In this document: positions 9,709 through 53,292 of the stretch, piece after piece
How the letters are laid out: the number at the start of each line of letters is the position of its first letter
Position numbering within the stretch: the stretch's first letter is position 1
NCBI GenBank assembly: GCA_021432605.1
Contig: MU271150.1
Span: forward strand, 496,001-560,000
Length of the DNA: 64,000 nt
Reading direction: 5' to 3'
Origin: Coniochaeta sp. PMI_546
Taxonomy: Eukaryota > Ascomycota > Sordariomycetes > Coniochaetales > Coniochaetaceae
Made by a program: the position numbers and the translations under genes
Notes under the pieces: generated by a model
The model's database searches: none
What the model was told of the DNA's origin: nothing
What the model saw: the letters and a program-made list of their open reading frames with translations, nothing else

Positions 9709-9747
<39 letters not shown>

Positions 9748-27439: not shown

Positions 27440-28807
27440 GGTAGATGGGATTTCTGTCTGTTGACCTTGTTAGAGTGTGAATAGACAGCATGTGGAGGGA
27501 GTTTGTGGCTGAGGGGGATTTTGCATAAATAGACAGACTATGTCATGGGAGACTATGTGATGGGTATGCCGGGTAGATAGAAGTGTCTAGGGTGTGCATA
27601 GATGTATGAACTCATAATTATAGAGCTGAACATGCTTCCCCTTGTGCATACCGCTCTCTCTTCCGCCTAATGGATTTTGTGACCTTGAGAAGTCCGGTAG
27701 TCGATCCCGCCTATCCTACTGATATAACAGACTTGAAGGTCGCCGATGTAGTGAAGATGAGTCTGGCGCGAGCCATTATTTGCCCAGCAATTGCTCAGAC
27801 ACTGCTAATTTCTATCAGCCACTCCACGAGGGTTGTTTCGGATCTTCGCTGCATCAGAACCGAAAGCGGTAGTTCCACAGGGTTACGAGGCTTTCAAACT
27901 AAGTCCAAGGATACTGAGACGGAGACTAATGACCAAGCTTCCCAGCACAGTCTAGGCGAATCCTCTTCAGCTCTTGCTATTGATTTCCGCCTACAGAAAT
28001 CATGTACCACCTCTCAATTGATGACCAGGAGAATAGTAGCTTTGAAAGAAGGATCCAGGATGCCAAATTGAATGGAGCCAAAGACAGAGACAAGATATTC
28101 AGACATCACGACGCGGGAGCAGCCGAGACGGTCGCACCTTCCCGAGTCTCGGGCCGTTCAAGGTGGACACGGTCACGTGCTCCCTGGAAGCCAAAAGAGG
28201 CAGCCAGGGTCTTTAGCGTCGTGAATTCGTCGTGAATTCGTGATGTGCTGTCTTGGCTGTGGGGTCGAAAGAGTGGAGCCCGGTTTGTTTTGGTTGGCGA
28301 GTCAAAACACCAGCAGCAACAATGATCTCCCCGCCTCCCGATTTTGTGCTGGCAGCCAGCCCGGGCCCGAGCCAACAAACAAGACGATGCGAGCTGAAGG
28401 CAACCTACCTCTACACCTATGTAAGCACAGTACAGTACCGCTGCGGTAGTAGTGTAGTGTAGCTCTCCACTTTTACAACCCGCTGGCAATCGTGGCGCCG
28501 GTAACACCATCAGACCAGCCCTACCAGGCTCCAGCTATCTTGTCCCCCCTTGTAGACTTAGTTTTAGTCTTGAAATCCTTCCAAAATCAAAACAACAAAC
28601 CTGGAACTTACATCCGTTGCTACAACATAATATCCAAGTCTGGTCTGTATTATAGACCCGCCTAGATAAACGGATACACAGAACCACACTACCACACCCA
28701 AGGACGGAAACACCGATGAATGCCTGAACGACTGAACGAATGAGTGACCCGTGACGTCTGCATTCCTGTTTCCGTCAAACGTTACTGGCGGTCAACCAGC
28801 CGGTACC
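27440..28807. other. Intergenic: GH7 3' flank and promoter of giant gene
   Basis: About 1.4 kb, with AT-rich bits near 27520-27640. An open frame continues 19 codons upstream of the giant gene's ATG without any ATG. I see no supported gene. Confidence 0.5.
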
Positions 28808-31800
28808 ATGTTGCGCGACTCTCGGCGCCGGAGCCCCGAAAGCTCTCGGCGTCGACGCGCCGAACGGAGACATTCCAGAGAGCAGCTTGCTGCTACTGCC
28901 GGCCCGTCATCTACCTACATTCCTGGCCCTCAAGCTCCGCAGTATTCCACCATGATACCCCAACATCAACCATCCAACGTCTCACTGCGGTCGCGCGCCG
29001 ACTCGAGCACCTCGAATACATCCTCAACCTCGTCCTCCCTCCTCAACATCTCCCGGAAGCCCCGCGGCTTCGGCATACGCTCCTTCTTCACCTCGAGTGC
29101 GAAATCCCACAGCTCGAAGAAGAAGAAGCGCCGCGCCTTTCGGTCCAAGAACTCTTCCTCCTCCTCGGTCGACAGTGACCTCGCATATGGTAAAGGGTAC
29201 ATCCCCAAGTCCACCGTGAACAGTCCGCGTCATGCGCCAGCCCACACGTCCTACCGCGATCCCTCCGCACCAGTCCTCGGTCCCGATGGCCGCCCTGCCC
29301 TCCGGCGCGCCCAGACTGACGAGGAGATACTCGAGCTAGGTCGCAAACTGTCCCTCTATGCGCGCGCAGAGAATGACAAGGACCTCATCCGCGCGGGCCG
29401 CTCGCGCCCGTCGCAGGTTGCCGCTGGCGTGGCGGCGATAAGCCGTCTGAGCAGACATAACACTTCCGATAGCCAGGGTGCGCGCGGCATCGGATCTTCC
29501 AAACCGGGTCGTCGCCACGACTCCGACGATTCCGACTGGGAGTCGGCCAGCGACAACGACGACGGCAGCAGCAGCGATGACTACGACGCCGGGCTTGCGT
29601 ACGGCTCGGCGCAGTTTTCGAGCACCCATCTGCCTCAAACCAGGCTACCGACCCACACCGCGGCGCCGGCGATCATTTCTCAACCCCCGCCGGAGGAAAT
29701 CCGGCCTCCTAACCGTAAAGCATCTGCTGTTGATCCTGCCATGTTCGGTCCCGTGAACTCCTTGAGGGGCTACATCAACACCCCTTGTGGCTTCCGGCCT
29801 GGCGAGTACCAACGTCCTCAAGCTCTGGCGTATGATCCTCATGCACCAGTTCCCCAGACAAGCAGCGCCTCTATCGAGGCGAACCGCACCTCACAGCAGC
29901 CTATGCGCATGGTGTATCCCGTCCCGACGTCCGATCCGGGCCGCTTCGAGACCACCGGGTCAGTCATAGCAGGATACACGCAGCACCCGCACGAGAGCCC
30001 AGTGAATGTCTCGCGCCCAGCCCCTGTGCCTATCCAGGCTCCGAAACCGATAGTACCTGTCTCAACCAGGGTTCTCGAGGCTAGGAGGATTGAGGAGGAT
30101 AGGTACCGTGAGCGCGAGCGCGAGGAGAGGCGGAAGTCCGAGCGCAAGTCTGACGGTCCTGGGCTTGCTGAAGCTGCTGTCGCTGGTGTTGCGGCCGCTG
30201 CTATCGGCGGTGCAGTTCTGTCGAGCAGTCGTGACAAGCGAGAGCGCGAGAGGGAGGCGCGCAGGACCGAGGACGAGCGTGACGCTGCTCGCCAGCGGGA
30301 GAAGGAGGCTCGAAGACTTGAAGAGGAGCGGGAGCTCGCCCGGAAACGGGAGAAGGAGGCGCGCCGGGTTGTCGAAGAACGCGAGAAGGAGGCGCGCCGT
30401 CTATCCGAGGAACGGGCCCTTGCTGATCGCGAGTTCGAGAAGAGGCGCCAGCGCGATAACAAGGACGAGGCTCGACGCGACGATAAGAAGATTGAGGAGA
30501 AGGAGAAGGATAAGAAGCGTCGCGATAGTGTCAAGAGCAACGCGCTGGTTGTCGACGAGCGGGTAGCGGAAGCCAAACGGAAAGAAGAGAGAAGGAGAGA
30601 AAGGCGTGAGAGACAGCGGAAGGAGCTGGAGGAAATCCAGGCCGAGATTGAGAGGCAGAAGGCGCTTCTTGTGAAGGAAGGGAAGGAAATCCCTATTCTC
30701 GCACCATCTGAGCCTCCTCCTTCAAGAAAGTCTCGGCACAAGGAGACTCGTGAGGTCGAGGTCGAGCGACCTGCACCATCGGTTGACCCCTTCCAGTTCC
30801 AAGTGGAAGACGATGCTTTCCCGACACCGCAGTTCACTACTCCCGCTCGTCCGCTTACTCCGGCTGTCATGACCATCGAACGCGAGCCAAAATGGGACGA
30901 CGATCTGGACCCGCCCGAGCGCATGAGCCGCAAGGACTCCTATGAGAAGGAACAGGCCCACATCAGAGCCATCGACCACGCTCAGATCAAGGCCGTTGTA
31001 GACGAGACCGAGCACTCCACCATTCCTGCCCACCCTGAGGTTATCGCAGCGGTCATTGCCGCCGCCAATAACAAGGACCGAAGACGAGCGCGCGAGGCAG
31101 AACCTACCCGTGACCCGATCGAGGAAGCTAACCGCTGGTATCGCCTCAAGAAGGAAGCCGAGCGTGAGGAGGAGTCCCGCTCGCGCTCTCCTGATCCCTC
31201 GGTGCTGGAGAAATACAACGACGCAGGAGATGATCCGGTCGTCCGCATCGTAACACCGCCTGCCATGGAACATCCTCATGAGAAGAGTAAGTATGACGGT
31301 CCCAACGCCGATGTGCGCATCGACCACGTTATTACTCCGCGGGAACTGCACATGTTCCGCGTACCTCCGACGTCCCTCGATCCCAACCGAGATTCGCCGC
31401 CAAAATGGATGTCTCGCGACCCATCGTGTGAGCGCGAGCGCCCCCTGCTCAACCTCGTTAGACCTACTCCGGAGCCGACGCCCATGCCGGAGAAGCAGGA
31501 GCAACGAGGCAGGGCAGCTTCGAGGTCCGAGCCCACGGAGGACAAGCCTCAAAGGAGCGAGCGGTCGAGGTCCAGATCCAGGTCTAGATCCAGATCACCT
31601 AGTCCCTCCGTTGTCCTGGGCCCACGCGGTGAAGTTCGGCAGGCCCCGCCTGACACTCCGACGAGCAAATCTGTCACTTGGGGCGAGAACGACACCAAGC
31701 ATTACAATCCTTCGAGCCCCGACCGCACAGCTGAAGAACGCGAGGCGGCCGAGAAGCTCAAGTCAGTCCTTGGCAACAAGAAGAAGACTGGTGGTGGCTG

Positions 31801-34800
31801 GGGCGACCTGGCTGCTGCTTTTGCCGCGGCCGCGGCATCTGGAACGTTGCCTGGCATGTCGTCGAGCTCGACCCCTAAAGAGCAGACGAAGAAGGAGATC
31901 AATCCTGCTACTGAAAAGAAGGAGCGCTCACCGTCACCAGTTCGCAGGGTCGAACCGGAACGGCCAAGCATAATTACTTCTACTCCACCAGGATCCAGAT
32001 CCATCGTCGATGACCATGAGCAGCCACCCCAGCCCGGCCCCAAACCACCAAGTCCCAGCCATCACACCTCCCAAAAACAGATGCCTGGCGCTTTCGCTGA
32101 TGACTTGGACTTCACGGCCACTCTTGCGGCAGGGCTACAGAGCTCTGGGTTTGATCCGAACATCGTGATCGAGGATGATACCTATCGGCGCCGTGACTCT
32201 CCTCCCGGCTCTAATGTTTACAACGGCTCATCAAAGGTTCAAGATCGGAACGCGCCTCCTCACAGCTCCAACAAGCTACCGTATCAGCAACCGTTCGCCG
32301 AGACTGTGACTGATCTGGGTGTCGTCGACGAGCCGGTTGCTCAAACGAAGCCTCGAGAGCGCGGCTTTGCGCCAGATGACGCCCCTGCTTCACAGAAAGA
32401 GGCGCCGGTAGAGGATGAGTGGGAGTCTACTCCAAAGTCCAAGAAGAATGGCAAGAAATCCAAGCGTGACACTATCGATTTCGTCGACCGTGAGCCCCTC
32501 GTCAAGGAAGAGCCGGCACCCGAGCCTGACTTGGAGCCGAAGCTGAGCAAGAAGGAGCAGAAGAAGCGCGACAAGGCTGCTAGATTGCGAGACTTTGATG
32601 ACGAGAGCTCTACCGCGCGAGAGCCAGACGTTGTCGTTGCCGATCCCCGCGAGGCGGAGTGGGCGCCCAAGCTGAGTAAGAAAGAGCAGAAGAAGAGGGA
32701 TCGAGCCGCCAGGGACGAGGGAAGCTCTACGCCGAGGGAGACGGAGGTGGAGTCGGTCGTTGCTGACCCTGAGGATGAATGGGAGGCGAAAGGTAAGAAA
32801 GGTAAGAAGCGGGATAAGACTAACCGACAGGAGGATAGAGAGGAGGAGAGCTTTACGCCTCGTGCGGTCGAGCGGGAGTCGGTTGTGGATACAGCTGAGG
32901 ACGAGTGGGCAGATGCCAAGGTTGGTAAGAAGGACAAGAAGAAGAAGCGCGACAAGGGTGCCACGGTGGAAGCATCACCCACTCCCCGTGACGTCGAGTA
33001 CGAAAAGACCGTCCCCGAAACCCGCGATGAGGAGTGGGAAGACACCAAGTCTAGCAAGAAGGACAAGAAGAAGCGTGACAAAGCCGATCGAGCGGAGGAG
33101 AGCTTCACGTCCGGTGTCCTCGTTTCAGAGCCCGCGAGCATGGGTAATGACGAGTGGGAGGAACCCAAGAGCAGCAAGAAGGACAAGAAGGGCAAGAAGA
33201 ACCGGAAGTCCGGCTCGGCTTGGGACGACGTGGAAGAACCTACTCCGTCCGACGACCGGTCCGTCTCTGTTCCGGTTGATGCGTTCAGCGACCTGCAGAG
33301 GACGGCTGTCCCGGCACAGGACGATGAGTGGGATACGCCGTCGAAGAAGTCGAAGAAGAAGTCTAAGCGTGACTCGACTTACGACACGTACGACTCTCCT
33401 AGCAGGTCGGTTGCGCCATCTGAGGTGTCTGTTGAGAGCTCTAGCAAGAAAGACAAGAAGTCGAAACGCGACTCGACTTATGATAACTACGACTCACCGA
33501 GCAGGTCTGTGGCGCCTTCCGAAGTGTCTGTCGAGAGTTCCAGCAAGAAGGACAAGAAGAGTCGGCGCAAGAGCACCAGGGACACCTATGACAGACCAGA
33601 CGAAGGGGAACCGCCCGATAAAAGGAGAGACTCCTTCAAACCCATAGACCGCGACGTCAGCTCCCTCGTCTCGGAGCCCACGAGATACGATGACCGCCGC
33701 GAAGGTCGGTCCAACGGCAGCTGGGCGGATGAGGTCGAAGAAGCCCAATCCGTCGTCTCGGCACCTCCCTCCTCAGACCGCAAAGACCGCAAGAAGCGGA
33801 GCAGCAAAGACAGTAAAGACGAGAAGAGCAGCAAAGAAGAGAAGCGCTCCAGCGGCGGCTTCTTCGGCCTCTTCAAAGGAACCAACGGCGGCGGTTCCGA
33901 GACCCAGAAAGACTCCGAAGACAAGCAGTCTTTTTTAGGTAATGCCGGCATCCTAGGCGCGGGTGCCGGCTTGGCGGGTGCCGCTCTGGCGTCGGCTCTT
34001 GTGGGATCAGGAGCCGAGGTGGAGGAGGACGCCCGCCCGAAAGCCACCAGAGGTACCTCGGGAAAGGAGGACCAACCATCACCACCGGCAAGCGCTGTCG
34101 AGCCCGAGAGGAGTGTCACTCCGCCGGGGCGAGCCCGCAGCATCAGTATGGGGTCACAGCTTGTCGATCCGGAAATCGTACAGCGGGTCATCAAGCCTGC
34201 TATAGATCCGCAGTATGGTGATCTGCTGCCGTTACCACCTAGCGTGCCCGGTTCTCCAAATCGAGAGTTGGACATGGAGATCGAGCAAGAGCTACCAGCT
34301 CTTCCGGAGAGTAGACCGGATACACCTCCCGCTCAGCACCAGCAGGAGAGAACCAGCTTGTCGACCACTAAGACTCACGTGCGCCGACGCAGCGCATTCG
34401 AGACACCGACCAAATCCCCATCCCAGACCGCGATACCCATCCACTTCCGGATCGGCCAACGATCCGTGCCTCCATCCCCAGGCATAGGCCGTTCTTCACC
34501 CATCCCCTCTCCCTCCACTCCAACCCCGGAGATCGGCAGCGTACCTAAACCGCGGTCACGTCCGAACTCATGGGGCCGGCAGATGCTCGGCGAGCCCAAG
34601 CCGCTATATCTGGTCGAGAAGACCAGCTCGGGCAGCCTCTCGACCGACTACGAAGATCAACAATACCCCGCACTCCCACCTAGCGAACCTGCTTCAAGCC
34701 GGGAGTCGCCCGCCCCAGAGCTTGAGAGACGGGAGGAAGATGTAGACTACCTGAGTCTCGCTCCCCACGCCGAAATGAGTGAACATGAGCGCGGACAGGC

Positions 34801-37800
34801 GCTGCGTCTTGACACTGCGCTTGCTGCTCTGGACCGATCTGAGCCGCTGGGATCGGCAGAGCTGACGCCAAGGGCAGAAAGGGCGCCGGAGGTAGACGAG
34901 CTTCCGCTGGAGTCCCGGCGTGAGTCGGTTGATGGGAGCCAGTCGATGGATGATACTTTCCACTCTGCTGCTCAGTCACCGGTGTATAGGAGGGATAGTT
35001 TCGGGCCTGCTATTGAGGATGTGGATTTGCCTGGCGACTTTTCCATAACGACGGTTGAGCCAGGGCTTGTGCCCACCGTTGAAGAACGGTCACTGGAGGA
35101 GCATACTCCGGGCAATATAAGTCCAACCGCAGAAAGCCAACAGCGCGACGACCTTTCACAACTGCCACCTCTACCTGCGAGCAGCGGAACGTCGCTAGCA
35201 GATGAGCCTCTACTGCCCAGGGATTCAGAATCCCTTCGACTGTCTCATGAGGAGATAGGACCGGCCAAAGAGCCGACGTCCGTAGAGCCCATGACGAAAG
35301 ACCGCAGCTCAGACCTCCTCCATCAGACTCCGCCGTCGACCAAGACGCTCGATGACGCTCGGATTCGAAATCGATCCCTCAGTCCATCACCTAGCCGCAA
35401 ACACGAGGATCAGTCTGGCTCAGATCTGGACATAGCCGCAGGTGTAGCTGCGGGTCTTTTCGGCAGCGGAGTCGTTGCTGCTCTCATGCACGGAGACCAC
35501 TCTTCATCTGGCCATGCACTTCCAGCGAGCAAGACTGGAGCAGTTAATGACCGCTTCGAAACTGATGCCGAGGACAGGGCAGCGTCTACTTCCAGGCCTG
35601 ACAGTCCGTCTGGAAGTATCAAGTCCGCAGAGGAGCTGCTCACCCCTGACGAGTTCAGCTTTATTCCGACCAAGAAGGGCAAGAAGGGCCGGAAAGGACG
35701 CAAGGGACAGACGGTGGACAGTCCTGCGGAGACGGAAACTGTCTTTGAGCGAGAAACTCCTGTTGAGGACCAGCCTCTTCCAGAGCAAACGTTGACCTCT
35801 GAGAACATGCCTACTGGCGAAGCCGCTCCTGTTGAGGAAGCCATGGAGACTCCAGGACAAGAAGAGTTCTCCACTCCCCTGCCTATCCCATCAAGCACTC
35901 AAACAGCTCAGGATCAAGATGATGGCTTCTTTGAGTCAACGTCTTCGAAGAAGAGCAACAAGAAACAGAAGAAGGCTCGCGGTCGCAATACTCCGATGGA
36001 GGAGGCACCTGGGATGGAAGAAGCTGTTGTGACGAAGGAGCAGCCCGAAGTTACCACAGCGGCCCTCGAGAGGTCTGTCAGCGTATCCTCCAAGAAAGGC
36101 AAGAAGAAGAAGGGCAAGCAGGCTGTCGTCTGGAAGCCGGAGGATGTGACTGATGGTTCTACTCCCGCTGAAGGTTCTTCTGTGATGCCGTCGGAGGACG
36201 TCAAACCAACAACAGCGAGTGACGAGACCGAACTTCCTTCCGAGGTACCACTTCCAGCTTCCCCGCTAGCAAGCCGTCCTTCGTCGCCCACATTGGTTGA
36301 AAGTCAAGATACTTCAACTGCTACACCTGCGACTGAGGCGCAAGCTGAACTTACGCCTGTACCACTGGAGAGGTCAACCTCGAAGAAGGGCAAGAAGAAA
36401 AAGGGCAAGCAGGTCATCTCCTGGGAGGCGGAGGAGCAAACTGCCGACGTAGGGCATTCCGAGCAGCCTGCTGAGAACTTATCAGGAGGAGGCGAAGGTG
36501 ATGCGCCGCTGTCCAATGATCCTCCTTCTTTAAGCCAAGAGCAGACACTTGTCGCGGAGCCGGTCCCTGAAACTCGAGATCTGGAGCGCACTCACGTTGA
36601 AGAGGAGGCTCCTGATGGACCTAAGCTCGAGCCAGAGGCGGACGCTGAGTCTGAGTGGGCAATTACTCCTGCAAAGAAAGGCAAGAAGGGCAAGAAGGAC
36701 AAGAAAGGGAAGAAATCGCAGTCCTGGGAAGTTGAAAAGACTCCGGAGATCGAAACCCCTAGCGAGGTGCTGCCAGGAGGATTTACAAAGACGCCGGCGA
36801 ATGATGTGCTTGAGTCAGAAATGCCTCCCAAGGATGATCTTGCCGAAGACACACTTCCAGAAACTTTCTCAGAGACTCCAGCGGTCGAGGTCAAGGAGGC
36901 GGAAATAGCTCCGAGCAATGACCTTTCTGACAATGCTCTTCCGGGAAACTTGCCGGAGACCCCGGCAGCTGAGCCGAACGAGCCAGAATTACCTGCTTCT
37001 GACGTACCAATCATGCCAAGCCAGGAGGAGACGCTCGTTCAGAAGGACGGTCCAGTTCTCTCAACGGAAGAAAGGAGCATCGCTGCCTCTGAGCCTGGGC
37101 CCGAAACTTGGCAGGCAAGTGCGAAGAAGGGCAAAAAGGGGAAGAAGGGCAAGAAGCAGGCGTTTACTTCGGAGCTTGACGAGCCAGCAAAGGATGATGC
37201 TCCTGTTACATCTGCCAGTGAACAGCCCGGCAGCACGCTTGTTTCATCAGCGGAGGTCCAGGACAGAGAATTGCCGACTGGTGGTCTTCCAAGCGGCTTC
37301 ATTAACGAAGATGTGCCTGTTGAGATAGCACAGGCGGTGACCACACCTGAGGCCGATGAGAGCTTTACTCCGACAACTACGAAGAAGGGCAAAAAGGGCA
37401 AAAAGGCGAAGAAGACACAGATTGTCTGGGGGCCTGAGGAAGCGACTCTCGAGGGCTCACCGTCGGCGTCTGCTGCGCTAGACGAGCCTTCTACGTCCGA
37501 GGAACTCCCAAGCAGCGAGCCTGCTGTCGCATTGCCACCGTCACCATCATCGCATCCTACAGTTTTCGAGCCCATCATCACATCTGAGCAGCAGCCTGCT
37601 TCGCCTGGGGAGGCAACAGTGTTTGAGGTGCCTGCCCCTTCTGAGCCGACCACATCCTCCAATGGGACTACGACTCTCGACGATCTCCCTATCTCTAAGA
37701 GGTCTGTCATGCCGCCTTCGCCGCCAAAGGATTTTGAGCGATCTATCACGCCAACAGCACCGATTGAGACCTCTGAGCAGTCTCTGAAACCGGCGACACC

Positions 37801-40800
37801 ACCTCAGCCCTCTGAGTCAACCATTGCCCCTCAAGAGAGCCCTTTATATGACGCGATCAACACGCCTCTGCCGGAGGAAGCCGGTGGGGATGATACGCTG
37901 GACTCGGGAGAGAATGACACGCCTTCAACTCCACCAGCCAAATCAGACCAGCAACTCTCCCCGAGCGGTCAAGGTGAAGGAGATGTGACGAGTACGGCGG
38001 CACGCAGCCCAAGTGTGGAGGCAAGCGGAGAGCCGCCAGCAAACAAAGGCTTGGTCACCGCTGCCCTGTCGATCCTTCCGTCAGTTTCGGCCGTCAGCAG
38101 CTTGTTTGGCCTCCGAAAGGGGAAAGAGAAGGAACAGGCAGCGGATACCAAAGTGGACGACAGCATGCCCGGCCATGACGATGGTACTCAGGTGGAAACT
38201 GAATCACCAGCACACGAGTTGAGCTCAGTGGACGAAGCGCCAACAAAGCGTTCAGTGGGCCTTGAGTTAGGCGAGTCCAGCGAGCATGGGCCTAACGTTA
38301 GTGGCCCCACAGCGGATGTGCAGCCATTAACACCCGTCAGCGAATCGGCCCATGCCACACATAACACTGCAGACACCGCTGCCGCTTTGATACCCGACCA
38401 ACAAGCGTCACCGCAGGATTATGCTCCCAAATCCACAGATGTTGATGGTACCAGATTAAAGGAAGAACCTGCACAAGATTTCACCCAAACTAAGCAGTTA
38501 GACCAGCCGTCATCCCAGGCCGCCCTCCATCATGAAGCAGCTCCAGCCATTGACGAGCAAATTCCCGACATTGAGGAAGCACAACCGTCTGACGCAATGG
38601 ACTGGGAGCTGGAAACCGCTTCTGGAAAGAAGAAGGGCAAGAAAGGAAAGAAGGGTCGCGCCAAGGCACAAGATGAGACCGCTTTCGCAGTAACGGAAAC
38701 CCCGTCTACCAGCCAAGTAGCTTCGGTTGAATCAGACTCGCAACATGCTGACGGTGAGCTACAAAACCCAGGTGGCGCCCTTCAGGACACGACAGTGGAT
38801 GGCCCTCCTGATGTCAAGGATGGCCCAATCGCCGAGGCAGCTGTTGAAGCCACACCGGACGACGAATGGGCATTCACCTCCAAGAAAGGCAAGAAGGGCA
38901 AGAAGAATCGCCAGAAGTCGCTACCTATCTTTGACAATCTTGATTCAGAAACTGGTGGCGAGTCAAGTGCTCCGGCACCAGACGAGTCGAAGATCACGGA
39001 CATTCCCATCGCCACTGACGAGGACAATGCTGCGTCCGGTGAGGCATCAGAGTCAGCCAAGGACATCGCGGGCGTAGACGCACCTGTGGAACCATCTGCA
39101 GAGGATCTTTGGGCGGAGCCTGTCAGCAAAAAAGGGAAGAAGGGCAAGAAGAATCGCCAGAAGGCACAGTCAACATTCGATGTGCCGGACATTGAACCAT
39201 CTGGCGCGTCCACACCCCTGGAGCCCACCGACGGTTCTCAGACTCCAGCTGTTCTAGCTGAGAGCGAGGAGCAACCTGCACCCATAACAGTCGAAGCTAG
39301 CAAAGAGATTTCTGCAGGTGCACCAGAAGAACTGACACCACAAGACATCTCGACAGAGACGGGCGGTAAGAAGGGCAAGAGAGGCAAGAAGAACAAGAAG
39401 CAGTCCGCTCAAGACTGGGACTTTGAACCTTCGTCCGCCGCTGGCGAAGCACGAGACCTTGAACCACCTGCCGATGCCAGCAAACCGGAAAAACAAGAGC
39501 CAAGCCAGCCATTTAGGAACTCCGCAGCCACGGGACAAGACAACCAAGAGGCAACCGCGGACGATCTCTGGGATTTCACGACAGCCAAGAAAGGAAAGAA
39601 AGGCAAGAAAGACAAGAAGAAGGGATCCTCGGGAACTACTTCTGGGATTGCGACTCCGACTGTTGAAGACGCTCCTGCTGTCAAAGAGACTACTGCTGTT
39701 GACCAGAGCTCGGCTCCTGTGGAGATAGCGACCGTTGACGAGCTTCCTGTGACCGAGTCCTTCCCGGCGGACGAACCACCACCCGCTGAAGAGGCTGTAG
39801 TTGCCAGAGAGAATTTGGCTACTGGAACCCCTCCCGTACCAGAGACTCAGATCACTGAAGAATCTCCAGTCGCCCATGAGCTTGATGTCCCGGACGAACG
39901 TCTTGCTGAACAGACACCCGCTTCTGGAGAGCTCACTACCTCGGAGACGATTGACACTGTTGCCGACGTTCCTACTCACGAAGCGACGTTGATTGCCGAA
40001 GCAAGCTCGGCTGACAAAGAGACTCCTAATACTGAGCAGTCTCCTGATTTCGTCCCTCAGGAGCAGTCTACTCTTGAACCTTCTCCTGTTATTGAGGAAC
40101 CTAGTGCTTCGGAACATCCTCACGTTGTCGACCCACGATCTGCTGCTACAAAGACTTCTGCCCTGAACGAAACTCCCGAGAGACAACATTTTGAGGACGC
40201 TACTCAACCTGCATCCACGGAAGAGCGGAGCTTGACAGAGGAAATCAACACCTTACCCGTCACCTTGGATGAGATTCGCGATCAGCAACCCGTCGGACCA
40301 TCTTCAGATAACACTTGGGAAGAGTCGACCAAGCCCAGCAAAAACGACAAGAACGGGAAGAAGAAGAGGCAGTCTACTAGAGACACCGATACTGAAGTTT
40401 CCTTGACCGAGCCAGCTACCGTTTCCGAACCCGCTGAGGCCGCGGAATCACTTACTGAATCCTTGCCAGACCTTAGTCAGACGGAAGCGGCCGCAGCCAT
40501 TGACCACTTGACCAGCGAGCTTCGCGAGGGTGACCAAACCGAAGATCCTGGTATTGGTACCGAGGACGTTAATCAACAGAAGGTCGTAGAGAAGGAGCCG
40601 GTCGTGACTCCGGCTGAAGACTTCTGGGAGCAATCCACATCTGGGAAGAAGGGAAAGAAGGGCAAGAAAAATAAGCGAGCGTCCAAGAGCTTTGATTTCG
40701 AGCTACCCGAGACGGCCGAGTCAAGCCAGAGTGAGGTACCTCAGGTTGCCGAAGAGGACAGTACTCAAGAGAAGCTCGACAAGGCGCCTGCTGAGGCCGC

Positions 40801-43800
40801 TGTCGAGGACATCTGGGCTGAGCCCTCTGGTAAAAAGGGCAAGAAGAGCAAGAAGAAGGGCAAACTCAATCGCCAAGACACATCCGAGGAGTTAAGCCTG
40901 CCGGAAGATCCATTGCAGACCGACGATACACGGGCGTCAGATACTCTCCAAGAGAGCCAACCTGAACTGCAAACAAGTGTGGAACCATCCGAGGGCGAGG
41001 TTGAGACATCCAAAAAGGTGGCAGACGAAGACGATCTCGGCGCTGAAGCTTCGACCAAGAAGTCCAAGAAGGGAAAGAAAAAGAACAAGGCACAACAACC
41101 ATTCTCGTGGGATGAGCCATCTCAAGACTTGACTGAGGAGCCGAAAGTCCTCGAAACTACGACCACGACTGCTGCTCGAGAAGTTACTCCAGAAGCAGAC
41201 CACGAGGAACCAGCAGCGACACTGTCGACTTCGCCTCAGCAACTGCCTTCTGACGCCTTGGCGGATCAACCACCTGAATCTGTCCCTCTGGCAGCTGAAG
41301 AGACTAGCCTGCTTCAGGCAGATGCGGAACAGGAGGTTGAGGACAATCACCCACCGACGACCAAGAAGAAGGGCAAAGGCAAGAAAGGCTCCAAGGTACT
41401 GGATCTCTCGCAACCCGAGCTGGCCCCGGAAGACGGTAAAACATCGCATGGCTCGGGAACACCCACCCCCGGTGATACATCAGTGGCAAGTGCCGATGAT
41501 TCCTCATCCTCCGGCAAAGGCAAGAAGGGAAAGGATAAGCGCCGTGTCTCATGGGCGTTGCCTGCAGAGGAAACCCTCGGGGAGCCGACAGATACGGACA
41601 TGGCCCCCAGAGAGATCCTAGAGGGTCCGGTCCTCCACGCCGTAACGGATGAGTCTCAAGCCGCAAGCTCTGCAACGAGCGCTCACCCTGCCTCCGGTGA
41701 GGAGCTGGAGATGAGCAAGGAGCTTCCATCCTTGGAACAACATGACCACCCTAAAGAGTCTTCAGAGACGAGTCCAGCAGCCGAGGCGTTCGACGCACCT
41801 GTGCGCGATCTCGAGCCATCTTCGGACCAAGATGTTCCACACATGCACACTCTGTCACCCGAACCAGCAGTCTCTGCGGCGATCACTCAACCGAACCAGC
41901 TTTCAGCTCCAGCCATAGAAACTCTTCCACCCAAGACCAACGAGGAGGAACACACGCCGGAAACCATAGCTGACATCTCGACCCCACCAACTGTCTCCGA
42001 GTCGAAGGACTTAGGGGCTGAGCAACACCCGCAAGATGAGCCATCTCAAGTTCCGCAACCATTCGAGGAGGATCTAAGTGCTCTTCTGCCCACCAGCCCT
42101 TACTCCGTCTCATTGAGGAAGTCGAAGAAGGATAAGAAAAAGCGCCAGAGTAGTCTGACAGATTCGTCCGAGGCGTCGAACCTGCCCGCAGATGATAAAG
42201 GCCAGGCCAGCTTGTCAGATCCCACCGCTCTTCTGCCTGTAATGACAGCTCCCGAGAACAATCCAGAAGAGTCCCGCAGCAGCAGCCTAACATCCGATCT
42301 TGATACAACCAGCCGAGAAGTGGTAGCTATTGAGGACGAGTTGGAGCTGCCCCAGTCCTTCACCCTGAAACGATCTAAGAAGGACAAGAAGAAGGGGAAG
42401 GCCAAGGCAATGCCGTGGGACGACCTAGAGTCAAGCTCAGACAACTCGCCATCCGAAAGCTGGTCCACACCGCCTATTCCCGCAGCCCAGCTGTCCACGA
42501 TCATGGAGGCCTCGACGGAAGATCTTCCAGGCTCCGTCCTAGGAGTTAAGCCCCTCCAAGATACTTCCGTCGAACAGCAGCCAGAAGACGCTGTCGGTGG
42601 GCAACAATCTCCTAAATATCCGTCTGAAAGCCAGACAGTCGATGTACCCCGCGACTATGAGTCAGATGCAAGCCAAAGAACCGAGAAGGCCGCCACTACC
42701 ACTGCGCAAGATGCTCCGCTCGCGGTGGAAACACCTACTGAAACCGAGGGTTTCTCTTGGCTGCCCAAGAAGGACAAGAAAGGCAAGAAGGGAAAGAAGT
42801 CGCAGTCTTTCCAGCCAGGGCCGACGGAATTTCAAGAGTCAGACTCACCTCCCCAACACGACACTACACCCGGTTCAGCGGACGATTCAAAACAGGCCGA
42901 ATTCAAGGAAGATGACTTCGTCACTCCAACCTCCGGCAAGAAGGGAAAGAAGGCCAAGAAAAACAAGCGTTCTGCGTTCACGGTCGATGAACCCGAGCCT
43001 ACCGTCGAAGCTGAAACTCCTGGCGAGGAGCCGCTCACTGAGAGGGCACTGCCTAGCGAGGACGTGAAGCGTGCGCCACTCGAAGACACACAACTTGAAG
43101 AGGTGAAAGACCTGTCAACCGAGCCGGAGCTAGCAGAGCTAGAGCCAGAGCATGTTCGAGACATCTCTGCTTCTGATGTGCAGCCAATCCCAGACGCAAA
43201 ACTCGACGAGCCAAAGGCCGTTGATTCCCCAGAGGGCAAGCCACAGGATGTCATTGAGTCCCCAATAGAACCTGAGCCAACAAGCGCGCAAGAACCAACG
43301 GAGGCTGGAGATGAATGGGCCATTCCTGTTAAAAAACCGAAGAAGGGAAAGAAAGGTAAAGCGGCCAAATTCACGGAGTCCGATACCCCTTCTGGCACCT
43401 CCACTCCTGTCATCGAAGACGCCCCTATAGTAGTGGCCTCTGAACCTTCATCCAGTCGGGAAATTGGAACGCTAGCTACCTCCGACGATATGAAAGAGTC
43501 CAACGCCCCTGAAGAGCCAGAAATCCAAAGCGAAGATACCTGGGCTCCAGCATCTTCGAAGAAGTCCAAGAAAGACAAGAAGAAGAAGGGGTCGAAGGCA
43601 TCTGACTCCGAGCCGCCGTCGGGTACGCAGACGCCTGCTGAGGGGAAAAGCGAAGTCCCAGTAGATGAGCCAACTGTCGAAATCAAAGAACCGGCTGATG
43701 CTATCATTGCCAGCGAGGAACCGACCACAATGACAGAGATCCAAGAAGCACAGAGCGAGGATACCTGGGAGTCACAGTCGACAAAGAAGTCCAAGAAAGA

Positions 43801-46800
43801 CAAGAAGCGCAAGGGCTCCAAACTGGCTGAGATTGAGATACCCTCTGAAACTCCAGCATCTGAACTCGATGAGCAACTCGTCAGTCGTGAAGTTGAGGAT
43901 CTGCCCCCAACTGAGACCGCTGAACCTGTGGGCCTTGATGTCCAACCTTCCAGTGTGGTCGAGCCGGAACCTGAGGTCGTAGTCGAACCCGAGGCAGAGA
44001 ACTTCTGGCCGGTATCGAGCAAGAAGTCCAAGAAAGACAAGAAGCGAAAGGGATCCAAGTTTGTCGATGCAGATTCCACATCTGGAACCGCAACTCCAGT
44101 CACTCAAGAAGAGTACAGCGCTCGAGAACTCGACACTTCAACTGCCGCCGACATTGAGCCAAGTGCAGACGTCGATGTCCAGCGAGATGCTGATGTCGAA
44201 GCTGACGATACCTGGCCCACGTCAACTAATAAGTCCAAGAAAGACAAGAAAGGCAAAGGCAAACAAGCCGCTGTTGGACTTTTAGCCGGCGCAGCTGCAC
44301 TAAGTGCCTTACCAGCGGTGGCCGACTTGTTGGCCCGTCAGGAAGACAAGGAAACCGAGCCCGACCGAGAACTTGCTGAAGCAGTGGAGAAGGAAGTAGA
44401 GCCTGATACTTTCTGGGAGACCCCAGCCAAAAAGCCGAAAAAGGACAAGAAGGGCAAGAAAAACGCATCTCGATCAGATTCGGGCACGGCTACGCCTGCC
44501 CAGGAAGAGCAGGTTGTGCTTCCGAGTGGCATGACCGCTGGCGGCGTTGAATCCAGCGAAATGCGTCAAGTCGAGGAGGACCCTGAAGCCAAGGAGGCAT
44601 CTGTTGAGACTGTTCCCGAACAAGATGATCTGCCCGTATTCAACACCAAAAAGTCCCGGAAAGACAAGAAGAAGAAGGGCAAGCAACTCGACTTTGCTGA
44701 CTCTGGTGCGACATCCCCCACTCCGGAAGATGCCAGCACCGAAACACATGCCCAAAATCCGGTAGATCCAGGCCAGCTAGAGAATGCCGAGACCAACGTC
44801 GAGACAAAGCCCCAGCCTCCCTCAGAAGAACCGCCTTCCTCCAAGATCGAAATCAACCCAGCTGTCTTGGGGGCTCTGCGACTCTCCCCAGACCACGGGC
44901 TCAAGGCCCTATTGCCGAGTGTAGATACAGCCGGCTTCATCGAACCCCATATTCTCTATCAGGTCGACACCCCGTCACCAAAACTACTTACAGGCAGTCC
45001 ACCTCCGAAGGAACTGCTTGGTGCGCCTCCAGAGACGACTCGCGAAGTGGACCTTACACCTGCTCAGGAGGGCGGCCGGGTCTCGCACAGCCCGCCCTTT
45101 GACAGTGCGTCTCAGCGCAAAAGGGCCAAGACACTTGAGGCCGACCAAAACAGCACTGGCGAGACGGTCAATCCAGCTCGGGAGATCGCCGCTTCGTATC
45201 TCGAGGAGAAGAGCCAGGATCTACCTGAGGAGGAGCCCAGAGATGATGCTGATGCTAGCAGGCGGGAGCGCTCAGCCAGCGTTGCTTCCAAGACAATTTC
45301 AAGAAAAGAATCTCGCGATATAGCAGCTTCGTACCTTCAAGACAAGAGCACGGACGGACTTCCGGAGATACCGCTTACTGAGGAACCCATGAACATTGAT
45401 GCCAAGCTGGAACCGTCCGCACGGGACATCGCAGCCGCTGTGCTAGAGGTCGGACCGAAAACTCTTCTCAATCCTGAAGACAAATCTGCCGTCAAAGATT
45501 TAGATGTTGGCACTTCCAAAGTTCAAGACCCGCCTTCCCCAGGAGCTAGAAGGCTAGCTGCTTCGTGGCTTGAGCACGAGCACGAGCAGCATCATCACGA
45601 GTCTCCGGCTCAGGCTGGTCAAGGTCGAGCTGGTCTAGGCATCCAGGAACGCGAAGTCGCCAAAGATGAACCGACCAACCCGTCTTCGTCTTCCACTTCC
45701 ACTTCAGAGGATGTGCGACAAGGCAAAAGCACCCAAAGCAACAAGAAGGCCAAGCGCCGCAGCACCCAAGAAGACGACAGGAAGGATGCTGAAGCAGCGG
45801 CCGCAGCAGGTGCGATTGCAGGTGGCGTGACGCTCCTAGCCGAGAAGTTTGGAGGATCCAAGAAGAAGAAGGGCAAGCAGAAGAAGCTTCTTGACAAGCG
45901 GACACCCCGGGAGGATGACCTGTTTGATGATCCAGCGTTGTGGGAAGGGGCTGATCGGAGGCCACTAGAAGGGTCGAGGATGGATGAGAATGCAGACGGA
46001 TTCTGGGACGTGCCTGATGAGGCGGACGACGTAGGAAAGCGTGATTTGGGCTCTGATGACAAGGTTGAAGTGAAGGACGACGATGTGGTGATGGGAGATA
46101 CGGGCGAGCAAGGGGTGTTGAGGTTGAGAGAGGTCACAGAACAAGCCGCTGGAGACTACGTCGAGAGCCCGACTCTTGGAAGAAGACCTTCAGAACGGAA
46201 GAGGGAGGCCGAGCGGAGGAGCAAGGCGCGACAAGAAGACAATACCGCGGAGACACAACATGTGCAACGGGCATTCTCGTTTCCTGAGGACCTCGCATAC
46301 GAGGATGTTTCAACGCCGGTCACAGCAGCGCCTGTCGTACAGCGAGAGATTGTTGAGGACAACATTGATGACTATTCGCCTATTCGATCAGTCCACTACA
46401 TGTCCAGCATACCGGACTTCAGGCGGTCCGTAGTGAGCCTGCCGCCCGTGCAGGAGGAAGCCGCCGAGGAGATGGAGCCGGAAAAGCATCAGACTCGGCA
46501 TCTGACAAGGACACCCGAGGTCAACAGGGACAGCGGCTTCCTGTCGGATTCGCCGGCTTCGCACCGCAGAAGCCACCGTTTCGACGATGACGGCCACCGT
46601 GACAGCGGTGTTCACCTGAAAGACTGGTCCGAAAGCACACCACCTCGGACGAGAGAGGCTAGAGGCGTCGAAACACATCCCGCAAGGATTTCTGGCTCGA
46701 GCCTCAAGGCGGAGACGCACGCTTACGATCAGCATGTGACGCCTGACAGACACGGTCCAGTCAAGAAGTCACCAGAGCCAAGCAGGGAGACGCATAGCAG

Positions 46801-49036
46801 AGGCCTCGGTCAGACACCCAAGCTGCGCGAGCCTTCACCACCTCCAAGGACGCCAGAACCGCAGAAATCACTGGCAAAGAAACGGGTGGCGAGGCAACTA
46901 GACAACGAGCCCACGCCAGAGCGAAATGTCGGCGCAGCGCTCACTCCGGTAGTCTCGGAACGACGAGTCGTTTCCGACAACGGCGCACTCCGTCAATACT
47001 CAAAGTCGCCTGTGGAAACGAGCACAATGGTAGCCAGACGCTCAGCATCCAACACCAGCATCTCGCGGCACCGGACCCCTGAGCCGCTGAATTTCCGGCC
47101 TGACACGCCAGGCAGCATCCGGTCGCTCCACTCTGCGACCCCACCGCTGCGACGGGTCGACAAACGGGTTAGCGGCGATCTGCGGTCCGTGTCGCTCAGC
47201 CAACGCAGCTTGGCCGAGCTGTCAGCCGCTGCCACCACTAAATCCGATAGCGATAAGCAGAATAAAGACGCTGCCGCTGCCACTGCCGCTGCAGCTCTGG
47301 GGGTAGCCGCCGGCGCTGCAGCCCTCGCACTCGCCGCCAGTAATTCGCGAGCCTCGCAAAACACCACCCCCGTCGCGAACGAAGGCCGTGTCCGCACAAA
47401 GGACATGGCCGACGTATACGTAAGTCGACCCTTTCACTTCTGGTGTCCTGCTTTGTCGCATTGTTCCCCCTTGTTCAATTGACTGACAGACATTATTATA
47501 TAGGATGGCTACGGCGAGGGCCGCATCGGCTCACCTCGCTCACCGACTCGGCCACACAGCATGCGCCGCCGCCAGAGCATGCAAGTCCTCGACCTCGAGA
47601 ACAAAGTCAAGGAGCTCGAAGCCGAAAACATCGAGCTCTCCCGCGCCCGCAGCCAGGTAGAGCAGACAGCAACGCAGCGCGCATCCATGGCCCTAGCCCA
47701 GCGCGACGCCGAAATCGACACCCTAAAACAAAACATCGCCTTCCTGCAAAAGGAAGTCGACCGCCTGACCGAGGTGAACGAAGGCCTCAGCAGCGCCAAC
47801 GCGCAGATAGCAGTAACCCACACCGAACGCTACCGCCGACTAGAGTCCCAACACGCCGAAGCCACGCGCGAGCTCGAGCAGTCCCGAAGCGCGCACGCGC
47901 AGCTACAACAGAAAGACGCCGAGATCGCCGCCCTCCGCGCCCAGCTCGAAGAGGCAAAAGACAAGATCCGGCACATGCAGGAGCAGATCCTGGCCTCCTC
48001 CCCGAGCGACGCGCCGGACTTCCTGCGCGTCCGCGACGTGGACCACTTCGACCACCGCTGCCAGCAGCTGTGCTCCCACGTGCAGCAGTGGGTCCTGCGC
48101 TTCTCCAAGTTCAGCGACATGCGCGCCTGCCGCCTGACCTCGGAGATCAACGACGAGAAGATCATCGACCGCCTCGACAACGCGGTCCTCGACGGGTCGG
48201 ACGTGGACACCTACCTCAACGACCGCGTGCGGCGGCGCGACATCTTCATGTCCATGACCATGACCATGATCTGGGAGTTTGTCTTCACGCGGTACCTGTT
48301 CGGCATGGACAGGGAGCAGCGCCAGAAGCTCAAGAGCCTGGAGAAGATCCTCCTCGAGGTCGGCCCGCCGCACGCCGTGCGGCAGTGGCGGGCCATAACC
48401 CTCACCCTCCTCGCCTCGCGGCCGCAGTTCAAGTCCCAGCGCGACGCGGACACGGAGGCCGTGGTCCAGGCCGTCTTCCAGACCCTCTCGGTCATCCTGC
48501 CGCCGCCGACAAACATGGAGGACCAGATCCAGAACCAGCTCCGCAAGGTGATGCGCGAGGCCGTCGACCTGGCCATCGAGATGCGCACCCAGAGGGCAGA
48601 GTACATGATGCTCCCGCCCCTGCAGCCGGAGTACGACGACACGGGCGAGCTGACGGAGACGGTCTCGTTCAACGCCGGCCTGATGAACGAGCGCAGCGGG
48701 GGGTCGACCACCAACGAGGAGTGGGAGGCCGCCGGGGCAGTGGTCAGGGTCGTCCTCTTCCCGCTCGTGGTCAAGAAGGGCGACGACGAGGGAAAAGGGG
48801 ACGACGAGGTCGTGGTCTCCCCCGCGCAGGTCCTGGTTGCCAGGCCCAGCAGCGGCTCGGCAAAGAGGAGCATCAGGATGGTGACGCCGAGCAGCGATGC
48901 GGGGGGCGCGAGCCTGTTTGCGCGCAGCAGCAGCGTGGCGGGCAACTCGCCTGCTGGTACGGTCTTGGGACATGGGCGGAATGGGAGTAATGTCAGTATG
49001 GGAGGGACAGAGGGCGGGGAGGGAGAGTTTATTTGA
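28808..49036 (+). CDS. lah: Giant Leashin (LAH)/involucrin-repeat protein, Woronin-body tether candidate
   Basis: About 6,714 residues in two exons: 28808-47419 (18,612 nt, no stop) and 47504-49036. The 84-nt intron has GTAAGT...TATAG in phase 0, and ADVY/DGYGEGR continues cleanly. The N-terminus MLRDSRRRSPESSRRRRAER is Arg/Ser-rich. Then come a charged helical zone (~residues 424-630, REKEARRLEEER-type involucrin-like repeats), SR-rich parts, and about forty spaced lysine clusters of the KKGKKGKK kind, often after an acidic D-[DE]-x-W. Six Gly/Ala-rich hydrophobic segments are interspersed. The C-terminus has a coiled coil (~6,230-6,370) and a compact Trp/Met-containing domain (~6,385-6,560). 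In Neurospora and Aspergillus, Leashin anchors peroxisome-derived Woronin bodies to cortex or septal pore. The family call is from architecture and name-level recall. Confidence 0.72.
30163..30231 (+). other. Gly/Ala-rich hydrophobic segment 1 of the giant protein
   Basis: A roughly 20-residue Ala/Gly/Val stretch (LAEAAVAGVAAAAIGGAVL) sits between highly charged helices. Similar segments occur near 33931-34017, 35429-35504, 44266-44340, 45787-45861 and 47270-47341. They look like membrane- or self-association-prone glycine-zipper elements, which is inference. Confidence 0.75.
33362..33559 (+). repeat. Two 99-bp in-frame tandem repeats
   Basis: Two adjacent units of 33 residues (containing YDSPSRSVAPSEVSVESSS) starting at 33362 and 33461. 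They are nearly identical at protein level, differing by T/N, with many synonymous changes. A diverged partial third unit starts at 33560 (SRRKST). This is a recent unit duplication in the giant gene. Confidence 0.9.
45179..45574 (+). repeat. Four R-[ED]-[IL]-AA-x-x-L motifs
   Basis: REIAASYL at 45179-45202, RDIAASYL at 45314-45337, RDIAAAVL at 45422-45445 and RRLAASWL at 45551-45574. Spacings are 135, 108 and 129 bases, between the last lysine clusters of the giant protein. Confidence 0.85.
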
Positions 49037-50291: not shown

Positions 50292-53200
50292 CTAACCGGT
50301 ATGCCATTTCATTCCAATGTTCGGATTCGCAAAGTTTTGCAAGTTGATCTCGCCGGTCTGCGGATCGGAAGGGAACAGCGCGTTCAGTACATCCTAGGCT
50401 TGATGTTAGCTAAGGCAGGTGTGAGGGGTGAACTTGTAAGGAACGCATACCCAGTCAATGTTCTCCATAACACCAGGCTGTGGCATACCCATGCTTCCCT
50501 GCCGGTGTTGGTGCGGATGACCCGCGACGCTTCCTCCGTCACTACTATTGCTCTCGGGGCTGCCGGGATTGCCGGGCGGCAGACTCCAAAGCACCTCGCC
50601 GTTCGAAACACCAGCCCAGACCATGTTGGGAGGTGGCGGGGCCGGCGGCACGTTCGGTGGCACGTGATGCATAGGCATGTGTTGCTGGCCCATCTGCATC
50701 CCGTGCTGACTTTGAGGCGTCATCCGGATAGGTGACGACATCCCGGACATGCCGGGTTCGGCCTTGAAGCCGGACATGCCCATCTGTTGCTGAGCCGCCA
50801 TCTGGGCCTGTTGATCCATGTACGGTGGCGGCACCCCGCGCGGCGATGGAGACGGTGCCTCGGACTTGACTGCTTGCTTCTCTGGAACAGCCTTGGCGAT
50901 GCCGGTCGGTGCGCGCATCTTTCGCATCCCCGTATACACAGCGGTCTTACCCATGATCTCCGTGAGAATTGTCACTCCTTTCTGCTCCCGTGGCATGTTC
51001 GGATCGAGGTTGAAGACGTAATCGAGACAGGGCCAGATGCGATCAGCCTCCTTGTTGTCCGGCCGATAGTAGATCTCCGTCGCCAGAAGTAGGGCAATCT
51101 GAAACTGTTGGTAGGCCCCTATGTACCAGGACCAGTCCCGGAATTGCGGATTGGTCTCCAGCTCGATGGAAATCTCGATGATCATGATGCCGCTCATGAC
51201 CAAGACGCTGTTCAACCGCTGGGGCATCGGATTCGTCGTGTTCGAGTGATATGGGTGTAATACCATGGCGTGCAAACGATAGATAAGCAGATACATGACG
51301 AGTTTCGCATAGCGCTGGATGGGGATCTCGTCGCTAAGGAAGTGGTCGTACTTCTCAAACATACGCTTGCGGAAGTTCTCAATCTTTGTCAAAACAGCCG
51401 TCAGGGTTGTCTTGCGTGTCTCCAACTTCCTCCGATCGCTCCAGATAATTCGCATCATCTCGTTGATCTCAAATCTCATTAATGGAAGCAGAGTCGACGT
51501 CCATTTCTCCGCAGGTTCTGGTGATACAGTGGTCTGAGGCGTCAGCTGTGCCTCTTCGCAGTTGAGGGGCAACTTGGTATCGTAGTCTTCTCGTCGTATG
51601 GCCGGTTTGGGACCCTGTGCTTCGCATGTGCGGATGTCGAGGAAGCAAAGCTGGTGCCACAATAGACGACGAACGTGTGTCTCTAGAGGGCTGAGTCCGT
51701 ACGCTTCTCCATCCCGATGCAGGCCCATGCACTCGGCCATCCTCACAGCAGCTCCAACCAAAACCGAGTGAGCGCGAGAGACCTCGGCCCGGCAGAGGGG
51801 AATCTGTGTGGTGTTAGATCTGAGCATAGGACACTGTTCGGCAAAGTTTCACTCACCAGGTACATAATAAAGGCCTGCATGGTATCCACCCTCGTCGTAC
51901 GTAAAAAGTTGGCCTTTCCTAGCGCACACTCGGTTCCAACTTTCATATGGTCGATCAAGTACTGTTTGCTAAAGCCGAATTCTGGATGGGCGCGGGTCTC
52001 GTCGAGGCTCACTGCGGCCGTGAACCAGGCTGCGAAAACGAGCGCCTGCAGAGGTGCTGGAGGTTCGTAGTAGTTGGCGATATTCTGCCAAAAAGATGCA
52101 TACTGAGTCTCGAAAGACCGCCGGTGGACACATCTCGCAATTGGGTGGACGGCATCCCAGTATCTCCGAAGGAGGCGATCCCCTATGTCCCTCGTTGGGA
52201 GGAAGTTGATGAAGGTGGGCATCTGGCCGACTTGGCCGAAAAAGAACCCGCTTGACGGTGCAATATAGGAGGCACCGGGCCGCAAGAACTCGGGGATCGA
52301 TGCTTCTGAAGCAGCGGCGTCCGACATGCTATCAACACCAGGCGACGGTCTAGGACCGCCTTGATATGCAGGTGTGGAAGGACTTTGGGTACCAGAGAGG
52401 CCCGCTTGTATCTGGTGATGGGTCAGCATAACACGAAAGATCCAGAGTACATTCAATCTGTAATATGTTTGCCAGAATGTAGCAGGCAAAGATGCGTACA
52501 TACCTCTTCTGACAATCGCGGCCGATTGAGACCACCTATTCGCTCGGTAATACGCATTCTACCAACCTGAATGCCGAGGTCGATGATATCGTCTGTTCCA
52601 TCTGCATCATCCTCGTACGTAAGATCGAGAGCCACCATTGGCGTGATCTCTAAGTCTCGCTCCTCGTCATAGTCTCCCTCGATATCATCGGCTAGAATCC
52701 TCTGCTGAGCCGCGGCTTTGGTGGTGGACTTGGCTACATCTCGTTCGAGCTGGCGCTCAAGAGACCCGACCTTTTCCTTGATTTCGGTCAGTCGGAGCTG
52801 GCTTGCCTCATCGAGTTTCGGGCCCAAGTATACGCAGTCCCGACTGAATCTGATACAGTTGGAACAAGGTTGCGATTTGTTGCACTTGAGCTTTCTCCGC
52901 CGGCATTCGAGGCAAGATGTGATCATACGCATCCGCCGACGAATGGGCTTCGAGGCGGATGCGGATTGTACAGGGCCAGTTGACTGTTCTTGTTGATTTG
53001 GGTCGACGCTGGCATCCATGGCCTGTTGGGCTCCGGGTGCCGGACCGAGAATAGTAGATGCGCCCGAGTATACTGGTCCACCATCTGTAGATGCAGCCAT
53101 GCCGGGACCCACAGAGCCGGCCATGCTGTTTCGTCCACCAACAGGAAGGACGGTAGGAGCAGAGCCATAAGAACTTCTGACAGGCTGCTGGTGAGGTGCA

Positions 53201-53292
53201 TACTGTTGACGCGGCTGGGCTGTTGGTGGGAGACCCTGCTGCGGCCGGTACTGGTTATGTGGTGACGAACCGTCGCTGCGATAGCTCGACAT
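50292..53292 (-). CDS. Zn(II)2Cys6 fungal transcription factor
   Basis: A nuclear regulator of 932 residues in four exons: 53292-52504, 52411-51857, 51803-50451, 50393-50292. The last intron (57 nt, GTATGC..CTAAC..CTAG) joins ENIDW to DVLNALFPSDPQTG. The N-terminal ~110 residues are Gln/Pro/Ser-rich. A canonical binuclear zinc cluster spans Cys127-Cys153 with spacing C-x2-C-x6-C-x5-C-x2-C-x6-C, preceded by basic RRRMRM, and followed by a coiled-coil linker. A fungal transcription-factor middle homology region runs from about 330 to 650 (DRLLRRYWDAVHPIARCVHRRSF; VRMAECMGLHRDGEAYGLSPLETHVRRLLWH). The C-terminus is Met/Gln/Pro-rich, a likely activation region. Target genes are unknown; the nearby GH7 gene is not evidence of regulation. 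Confidence 0.93.

Follow-up and report, generated by a model that had tools for sequence, protein, structure and literature searches.

A probable Leashin of 6,714 residues in Coniochaeta sp. PMI_546 and the lysine-cluster array of its central linker

How are Woronin bodies held near septal pores and drawn into them, and what underlies the apparent elasticity of their tether and its sensitivity to ATP? These questions bear on a giant gene on the plus strand at 28808-49036 of a 64,000-nucleotide stretch of Coniochaeta sp. PMI_546 (GenBank assembly GCA_021432605.1, contig MU271150.1, positions 496,001 to 560,000; hereafter the window, from whose first letter all positions are counted). We read its product as a Leashin, called Lah in Aspergillus fumigatus, of the unsplit septal-pore type, with a probability of roughly 85%; the placement comes from architecture and not from direct homology. 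The gene itself belongs, as could be expected, to a family already known; what is new is the repeat anatomy of its linker.

One giant frame with a Leashin-like layout

The gene model has two exons:

28808-47419, plus strand: exon 1, an open frame of 18,612 coding nucleotides, residues 1-6204
47420-47503, plus strand: the single intron, 84 nucleotides, phase 0, GTAAGT...TATAG
47504-49036, plus strand: exon 2, residues 6205-6714 and the stop codon (TGA, ending at 49036)

The open reading frame listed on the plus strand runs from 28751 to 47482 (6,243 codons). The ATG at 28808 is the earliest in-frame start past the upstream stop at 28745, and from there the frame is free of stops for 6,224 codons until the TGA at 47480; in 100 mononucleotide-shuffled versions of the region, read in three frames, stop-free runs reached at most 281 codons (median 190.5). 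Thirteen GT-AG joins keep one open frame; among them, the 84-nucleotide intron alone combines a donor of consensus type with an acceptor of the form YAG. The joined product has 6,714 residues, a mass of 729 kDa and an isoelectric point of 5.0. A preliminary description of this DNA had given about 6,700 residues, an unbroken first exon of 18.6 kb, and one coherent frame through the start, the single intron and the C-terminal part; the model above bears out both the size and the frame. Three very short upstream open reading frames (3, 7 and 4 codons) lie at 28716-28754, within the 92 nucleotides 5' of the ATG, and possibly damp translation.

We scanned exon 1 for hidden introns with donors of the GTRNGT type. 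There are three such donors, and only the one at 45105 (GTGCGT) has acceptors and a branch-like motif within 199 nucleotides; its acceptors lie at 157, 171 and 175 nucleotides, of which the one at 171 would preserve the frame. The other two had none in range under this pattern, and the same scan recovered the real 84-nucleotide intron, so that no GTRNGT donor of exon 1 points to a strong hidden intron. Avoidance of splice donors in exon 1 was also considered and dropped: the three GTRNGT sites compare with 6.0 +/- 2.3 in synonymous shuffles, 68 of 500 of which were as low.

The two ends of the protein carry the features that matter for its identity:

28808-29839, plus strand: the N-terminal 344 residues, which match by position the Woronin-body-binding part of Neurospora crassa LAH (1-344)
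47561-47995, plus strand: coiled coil of the C-terminal part, roughly residues 6224-6368 (491-347 when counted from the C end)
48017-48841, plus strand: C-terminal domain, about residues 6376-6650
48245-48301, plus strand: membrane-like segment, residues 6452-6470, 263 to 245 from the C end

Leashin was described in N. crassa as the tether of Woronin bodies; the predicted Leashins of Pezizomycotina outside Neurospora have 5,936-7,480 residues, with complex ends around a centre that is acidic, rich in Pro, Glu, Leu and Ser (PELS), poorly conserved and perhaps elastic (PMC2690989). The 6,714 residues found here fall inside that range, and the centre is likewise acidic and PELS-enriched: the product has a net charge (K+R-D-E) of -313, and Ser (11.1%), Glu (10.8%), Pro (9.5%) and Leu (5.5%) make up 36.9% of its residues. 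Coiled coil, membrane-like segment and terminal domain also follow one another in the order of an unsplit Leashin.

We put the comparison with A. fumigatus Lah first because Leonhardt et al. speak against a simple equation with N. crassa. The last 288 residues of Lah target the pore rim, and predictions for its last 1,000 residues place a coiled coil at 509-686 and a transmembrane stretch at 761-781 (PMC5345055). Counted from the C end, the Lah coiled coil spans 492-315, compared with about 491-347 here, and its membrane segment spans 240-220, compared with 263-245 here, with 219 residues beyond it in Lah and 244 in our protein. Like Lah and most Leashins of Pezizomycotina, the protein is giant, acidic and encoded in a single predicted frame (PMC5345055, PMC2690989); with N. 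crassa LAH-1/LAH-2 it shares the giant size and the acidic, PELS-rich centre between complex ends (PMC2690989). The size, the centre, and the order and C-end distances of these three parts support the reading as a Leashin tether that had been proposed for this gene.

The C-terminal features were assigned from residue patterns. For the coiled coil, we used a proline-free run (6222-6370) and a crude heptad score, which is positive over 6229-6306 and 6332-6370. On an octanol scale, no other 19-mer of the protein is as membrane-like as residues 6452-6470, which score -8.5 kcal/mol; the next reaches -5.0. The terminal domain had previously been placed at 47990-48530; its presence stands, but it is wider, extending over about 48017-48841. 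Two single-sequence AlphaFold2 runs of this domain gave mean predicted local distance difference test scores of 40.2 and 47.0, with all or nearly all of the model helical; the models are too poor to use. The membrane-like segment may be a buried helix of a soluble domain or a transmembrane one.

Codon usage separates the two ends. The G+C content at third codon positions (GC3) is 0.92-1.0 over 47854-48841, which covers the C-terminal domain (residues 6351-6650, 50-codon blocks), and 0.43-0.60 in the linker of the same gene (residues 2001-5800, 200-codon blocks). After matching for amino acids, the maximum of the whole protein lies at 6363-6685, with values of 0.31-0.38 against a null 95% of the maximum of 0.249 (50-codon windows). 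At the N terminus, the peaks at 61-110 and 240-289 reach 0.25 each, just touching that threshold, and those at 161-210 (0.17) and 349-398 stay below it. Given these peaks, the C-terminal domain is clearly marked as constrained and the N terminus weakly so. GC3 is an imperfect marker of conserved domains, and regional base composition could contribute to the pattern.

Several observations weigh against the assignment to the Leashins. Pfam returned no family up to E 0.1 for exon 1, searched in three pieces, and for the last 491 residues seven families of the coiled-coil type, all below their curated cut-offs; NCBIfam gave three sub-cut-off matches of the SMC/Rad50 type over residues 1-2000, 4001-6205 and the last 491. 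A PDB search with the last 491 residues returned four chains up to E 1, the best at 0.026. Two pattern scans covered the C-terminal part: one of viral contigs with 230 residues of the C-terminal domain (12 matches, none confirmed) and one of prokaryote genome contigs with the last 491 residues (127 matches, none confirmed). The membrane-like segment contains one Glu and one Arg, and its Kyte-Doolittle mean (1.05 over 6451-6469) is below that of nine other segments. At the other end, residues 1-344 of N. crassa LAH co-localise with Woronin bodies (PMC2690989), but the positional analogy is weak, because Leonhardt et al. judge A. fumigatus WscA unlikely to be a direct participant in tethering. 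The N-terminal codon peaks barely reach the null threshold, and the weaker size (0.17-0.19) is not peculiar to this end: other parts of the protein have sub-threshold peaks as well, for example at 689-738 and 5862-5911. As a yardstick, the PEX1-like gene in the same window has a GC3 of 0.86-0.93 over its second AAA domain but only 0.63 over its PEX-1N domain. Finally, the R1 repeat of Neurospora has no significant counterpart in this protein (44 of 500 protein shuffles reach its best score). The R2-like stretch at 2477 beats 500 of 500 protein shuffles, yet 3 of 500 shuffled queries reach its score; it is the one good match to R2 or R3, with no exact longer piece elsewhere in the protein. By these shuffle tests, arrays of R1-R3 are absent or weak, and we dropped them.

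A lysine-cluster array in the acidic centre

The middle of the protein had been called largely low-complexity and undescribed. The first holds in part, as the centre is a patterned repeat array:

32756-44689, plus strand: lysine-cluster array, residues 1317-5294, 34 modules of roughly [DE][DE]x[WF]x(3-5)[ST]KKxKKxKKxK
33356-33559, plus strand: tandem 99-nucleotide unit within the array, 2.1 copies, 82% matches

The second has to be divided: an acidic, poorly conserved linker is in print (PMC2690989), but in the Leashin and Woronin-body literature searched we found no description of the motif array; a paper on the Aspergillus oryzae linker may say more. The array is a possible difference from Lah and Leashin, as the parts consulted of PMC5345055 and PMC2690989 do not mention it.

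An aromatic residue precedes the cluster in 27 of the 34 modules (Trp in 20, only Phe or Tyr in 7) and is missing in the other 7; an acidic pair is present in 28. The first eight modules start 33-74 residues apart (median 42) and are followed by a gap of 633 residues; among the other 26 the spacing is 48-151 residues, interrupted by three larger gaps (352, 356 and 414). The protein has 39 Lys/Arg clusters of this pattern; the set comprises all those within residues 1200-5400, and the 5 beyond these bounds were dropped. Scores of the module profile are circular, because it was trained on the same 34 units that it then scored, and 50 + 50 shuffles gave 0 or 1 hits. Of five weaker matches, three carry a Trp; they are sub-threshold and occur at 1197 (3.0 bits), 1278 (-2.2) and 3830 (1.7).

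The association between Trp and the clusters can be seen independently of the profile. Of the 49 Trp residues of the protein, 20 precede a KKxKK (K or R) at a distance of 2-9 residues, compared with a mean of 3.0 and a maximum of 9 in 2,000 permutations over positions other than Lys and Arg. The charge profile, averaged over 24 of the 34 modules, changes from -0.39 per residue at 12-7 positions before the cluster to +0.6 within it, on a background of about -0.1 to -0.2.

The modules also stand out in their codons, which were tested with the module bounds of the profile. Over residues 2250-5300, which hold 26 of the 34 modules, 423 of 654 module codons end in G or C, compared with 354.8 expected from amino-acid-matched spacers. 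When the mask of 26 modules was shifted circularly, an excess as large as the real one was reached by 11 of 3,070 shifts, whether lysine was included or not; in the version that includes every residue, these 11 are shifts by 1-8, 10, -1 and -2 residues, practically the true position. Codon bias in the linker peaks on the modules, a local sign of constraint. The modules share ancestry, and their codons are non-independent draws. Running counter to this result is the early block of eight modules, where 139 of 199 codons end in G or C and the expectation is 128.9, only a slight surplus. Because ungapped nucleotide identity between modules is low (median 0.40, maximum 0.75), they look old, apart from the one tandem 99-nucleotide pair. 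With a repeated module that bears such a mark, a linker described as poorly conserved gains units open to counting, deletion and comparison, and spring models become testable.

Alternative readings and a possible charged leash

With the array in hand, three other explanations of the locus can be weighed. The first is a split locus of the Neurospora type, in which one apparent gene contains two transcription units for a LAH-1-like and a LAH-2-like protein. For the N. crassa locus, too, a single huge gene had been predicted where two units were then demonstrated (PMC2690989), and an internal promoter would be compatible with a continuous frame. Here, however, exon 1 has no internal stop and no strong cryptic intron by the GTRNGT scan, and the module array covers much of the middle in one frame. 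The split is known for Neurospora and has been linked with the dispersed pattern that this genus and Sordaria show, and the N. crassa prediction is of 10,821 residues with R1-R3 arrays (PMC2690989), which were not found in our protein; one frame and a lysine-cluster module stand here in place of two transcription units and R1-R3 repeats. We therefore regard a split locus as improbable.

A little harder still to credit is a giant disordered scaffold of tips or septa that has the layout of Lah and no role in tethering Woronin bodies. N. crassa LAH-2 is a scaffold of the Spitzenkörper for COT-1 and GPI-1. It is dispensable for Woronin-body tethering in that species (PMC2690989), and the borderline evidence at the N terminus and a placement by architecture leave room for such a protein. 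Against it, the C-terminal distances match those of A. fumigatus Lah, which is a Woronin-body tether (PMC5345055), and the length matches the unsplit Leashins. An assembly error that fused unrelated frames is hardly conceivable: we found no point in its favour, and 6,224 stop-free codons, the recurrence of the same module over residues 1317-5294, a window without any N, and a consensus intron all speak against it.

If the protein is a Leashin, its parts suggest how it might work. By analogy with the known tethers, the N-terminal few hundred residues would bind the surface of the Woronin body, the C-terminal coiled coil would allow Lah chains to associate, and the final domain with the membrane-like segment would dock at the pore rim, leaving the acidic centre of about 5,600 residues to serve as the leash. 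The oppositely charged parts of the linker would attract one another within and between chains; with such attraction, the leash would be a retractable charged spring, its tension tunable, for example by phosphorylation, which could hold the organelles near the pore and allow their movement into it. A rough scaling estimate puts the two ends of such a linker, if disordered and some 5,600 residues long, about 90 nm apart, near the lower end of the reported spacing of 100-200 nm (PMC2690989). Reports from other fungi describe elastic recoil as well as an influence of ATP depletion (PMC2690989, PMC5656841). The principle is possibly similar to that of titin PEVK, a charged, disordered, elastic linker, a comparison made by Ng et al.; in contrast to PEVK units, the modules here are lysine clusters with a preceding aromatic residue, and we claim no relation in sequence.

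Some classes of potential phosphorylation site are enriched in the protein compared with shuffles: [ST]P sites number 161 (114 +/- 8.7 in shuffles), R-x(1,2)-[ST]P sites 29 (14 +/- 3.8), and [RK][RK]x[ST] sites 39 (23 +/- 4.5). In A. fumigatus lacking the kinase YakA, the phosphorylation changes of Lah rank with the largest found in septal proteins, and when iron is low YakA is required for the septal localisation of LahC (PMC11166925). For Magnaporthe, localisation led the authors of one study to suggest a link between CK2 and Lah (PMC6478894). We rejected regulation by CK2 for this protein, a result that does not favour a tunable leash: CK2-type sites are about as frequent as in shuffles (236 against 222 +/- 12.1) and their strong form is depleted (25 against 41 +/- 5.9).

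The sole intron of the model sits immediately 5' of the part that encodes the coiled coil and the pore domain. It contains an in-frame TGA (47480-47482), so that retention would yield a form without the anchor, a product of 6,224 residues that lacks the coiled coil and the C-terminal domain. In N. crassa, splicing of intron 10 provides the C terminus of LAH-1 (PMC2690989); intron retention, if it occurs here, would be a different route to a LAH-1-like product. A retained-intron message might produce an unanchored isoform or might simply be destroyed. Taken as a whole, the proposal that the leash consists of 34-37 charge-dipole modules forming an electrostatic spring tuned by phosphorylation, and that intron retention adds an unanchored isoform with which one unsplit gene mimics the split LAH-1/LAH-2, is tentative and on balance rather doubtful.

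Other linker features and neighbouring genes

Three further features lie within the gene:

30161-30691, plus strand: the longest proline-free run, residues 452-628 (177 residues), with an Ala/Gly hydrophobic segment at 453-471 followed by a stretch rich in Glu, Arg and Lys
30164-47338, plus strand: eight hydrophobic 19-mers, starting at residues 453, 1001, 1715, 2209, 3082, 5154, 5663 and 6159
45179-45571, plus strand: four 8-residue motifs like RDIAASYL, residues 5458-5588

More than half of the residues are Ala or Gly in 7 of the 8 hydrophobic 19-mers; 300 shuffles gave a mean of 1.18 and a maximum of 7 hydrophobic 19-mers, with a hydropathy threshold chosen after the fact. These segments are candidates for membrane contact or chain packing. 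Neither the Ala/Gly segments nor the RDIAASYL motifs show clear codon constraint (residuals of -0.25 to +0.14). A stable single alpha-helix at 476-628 was tried and rejected; attractive pairs number 87 compared with 71.5 +/- 6.3, but the net score is matched in 238 of 1,000 shuffles.

A gene for a PEX1-like peroxin with PEX-1N and AAA domains lies at 58687-62307 on the plus strand, about 9.7 kb past the end of the Leashin-like gene; a peroxisome-biogenesis gene is found near the probable tether of organelles derived from peroxisomes. Just downstream of the Leashin-like gene, at 50406-53367 on the minus strand, neighbouring open reading frames carry Fungal_trans and Zn2Cys6 cluster domains and perhaps make up one fungal transcription factor. 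On the other side, AMP-binding, phosphopantetheine and NAD_binding_4 domains extend across two adjoining open reading frames at 15646-18649 on the plus strand, like an enzyme of the carboxylate or aminoadipate reductase kind. A UTP-glucose-1-phosphate uridylyltransferase domain (E 4.2e-175) is encoded at 10895-12088 on the minus strand, and a poly-C tract of 45 nucleotides with 95% matches lies at 9710-9754.

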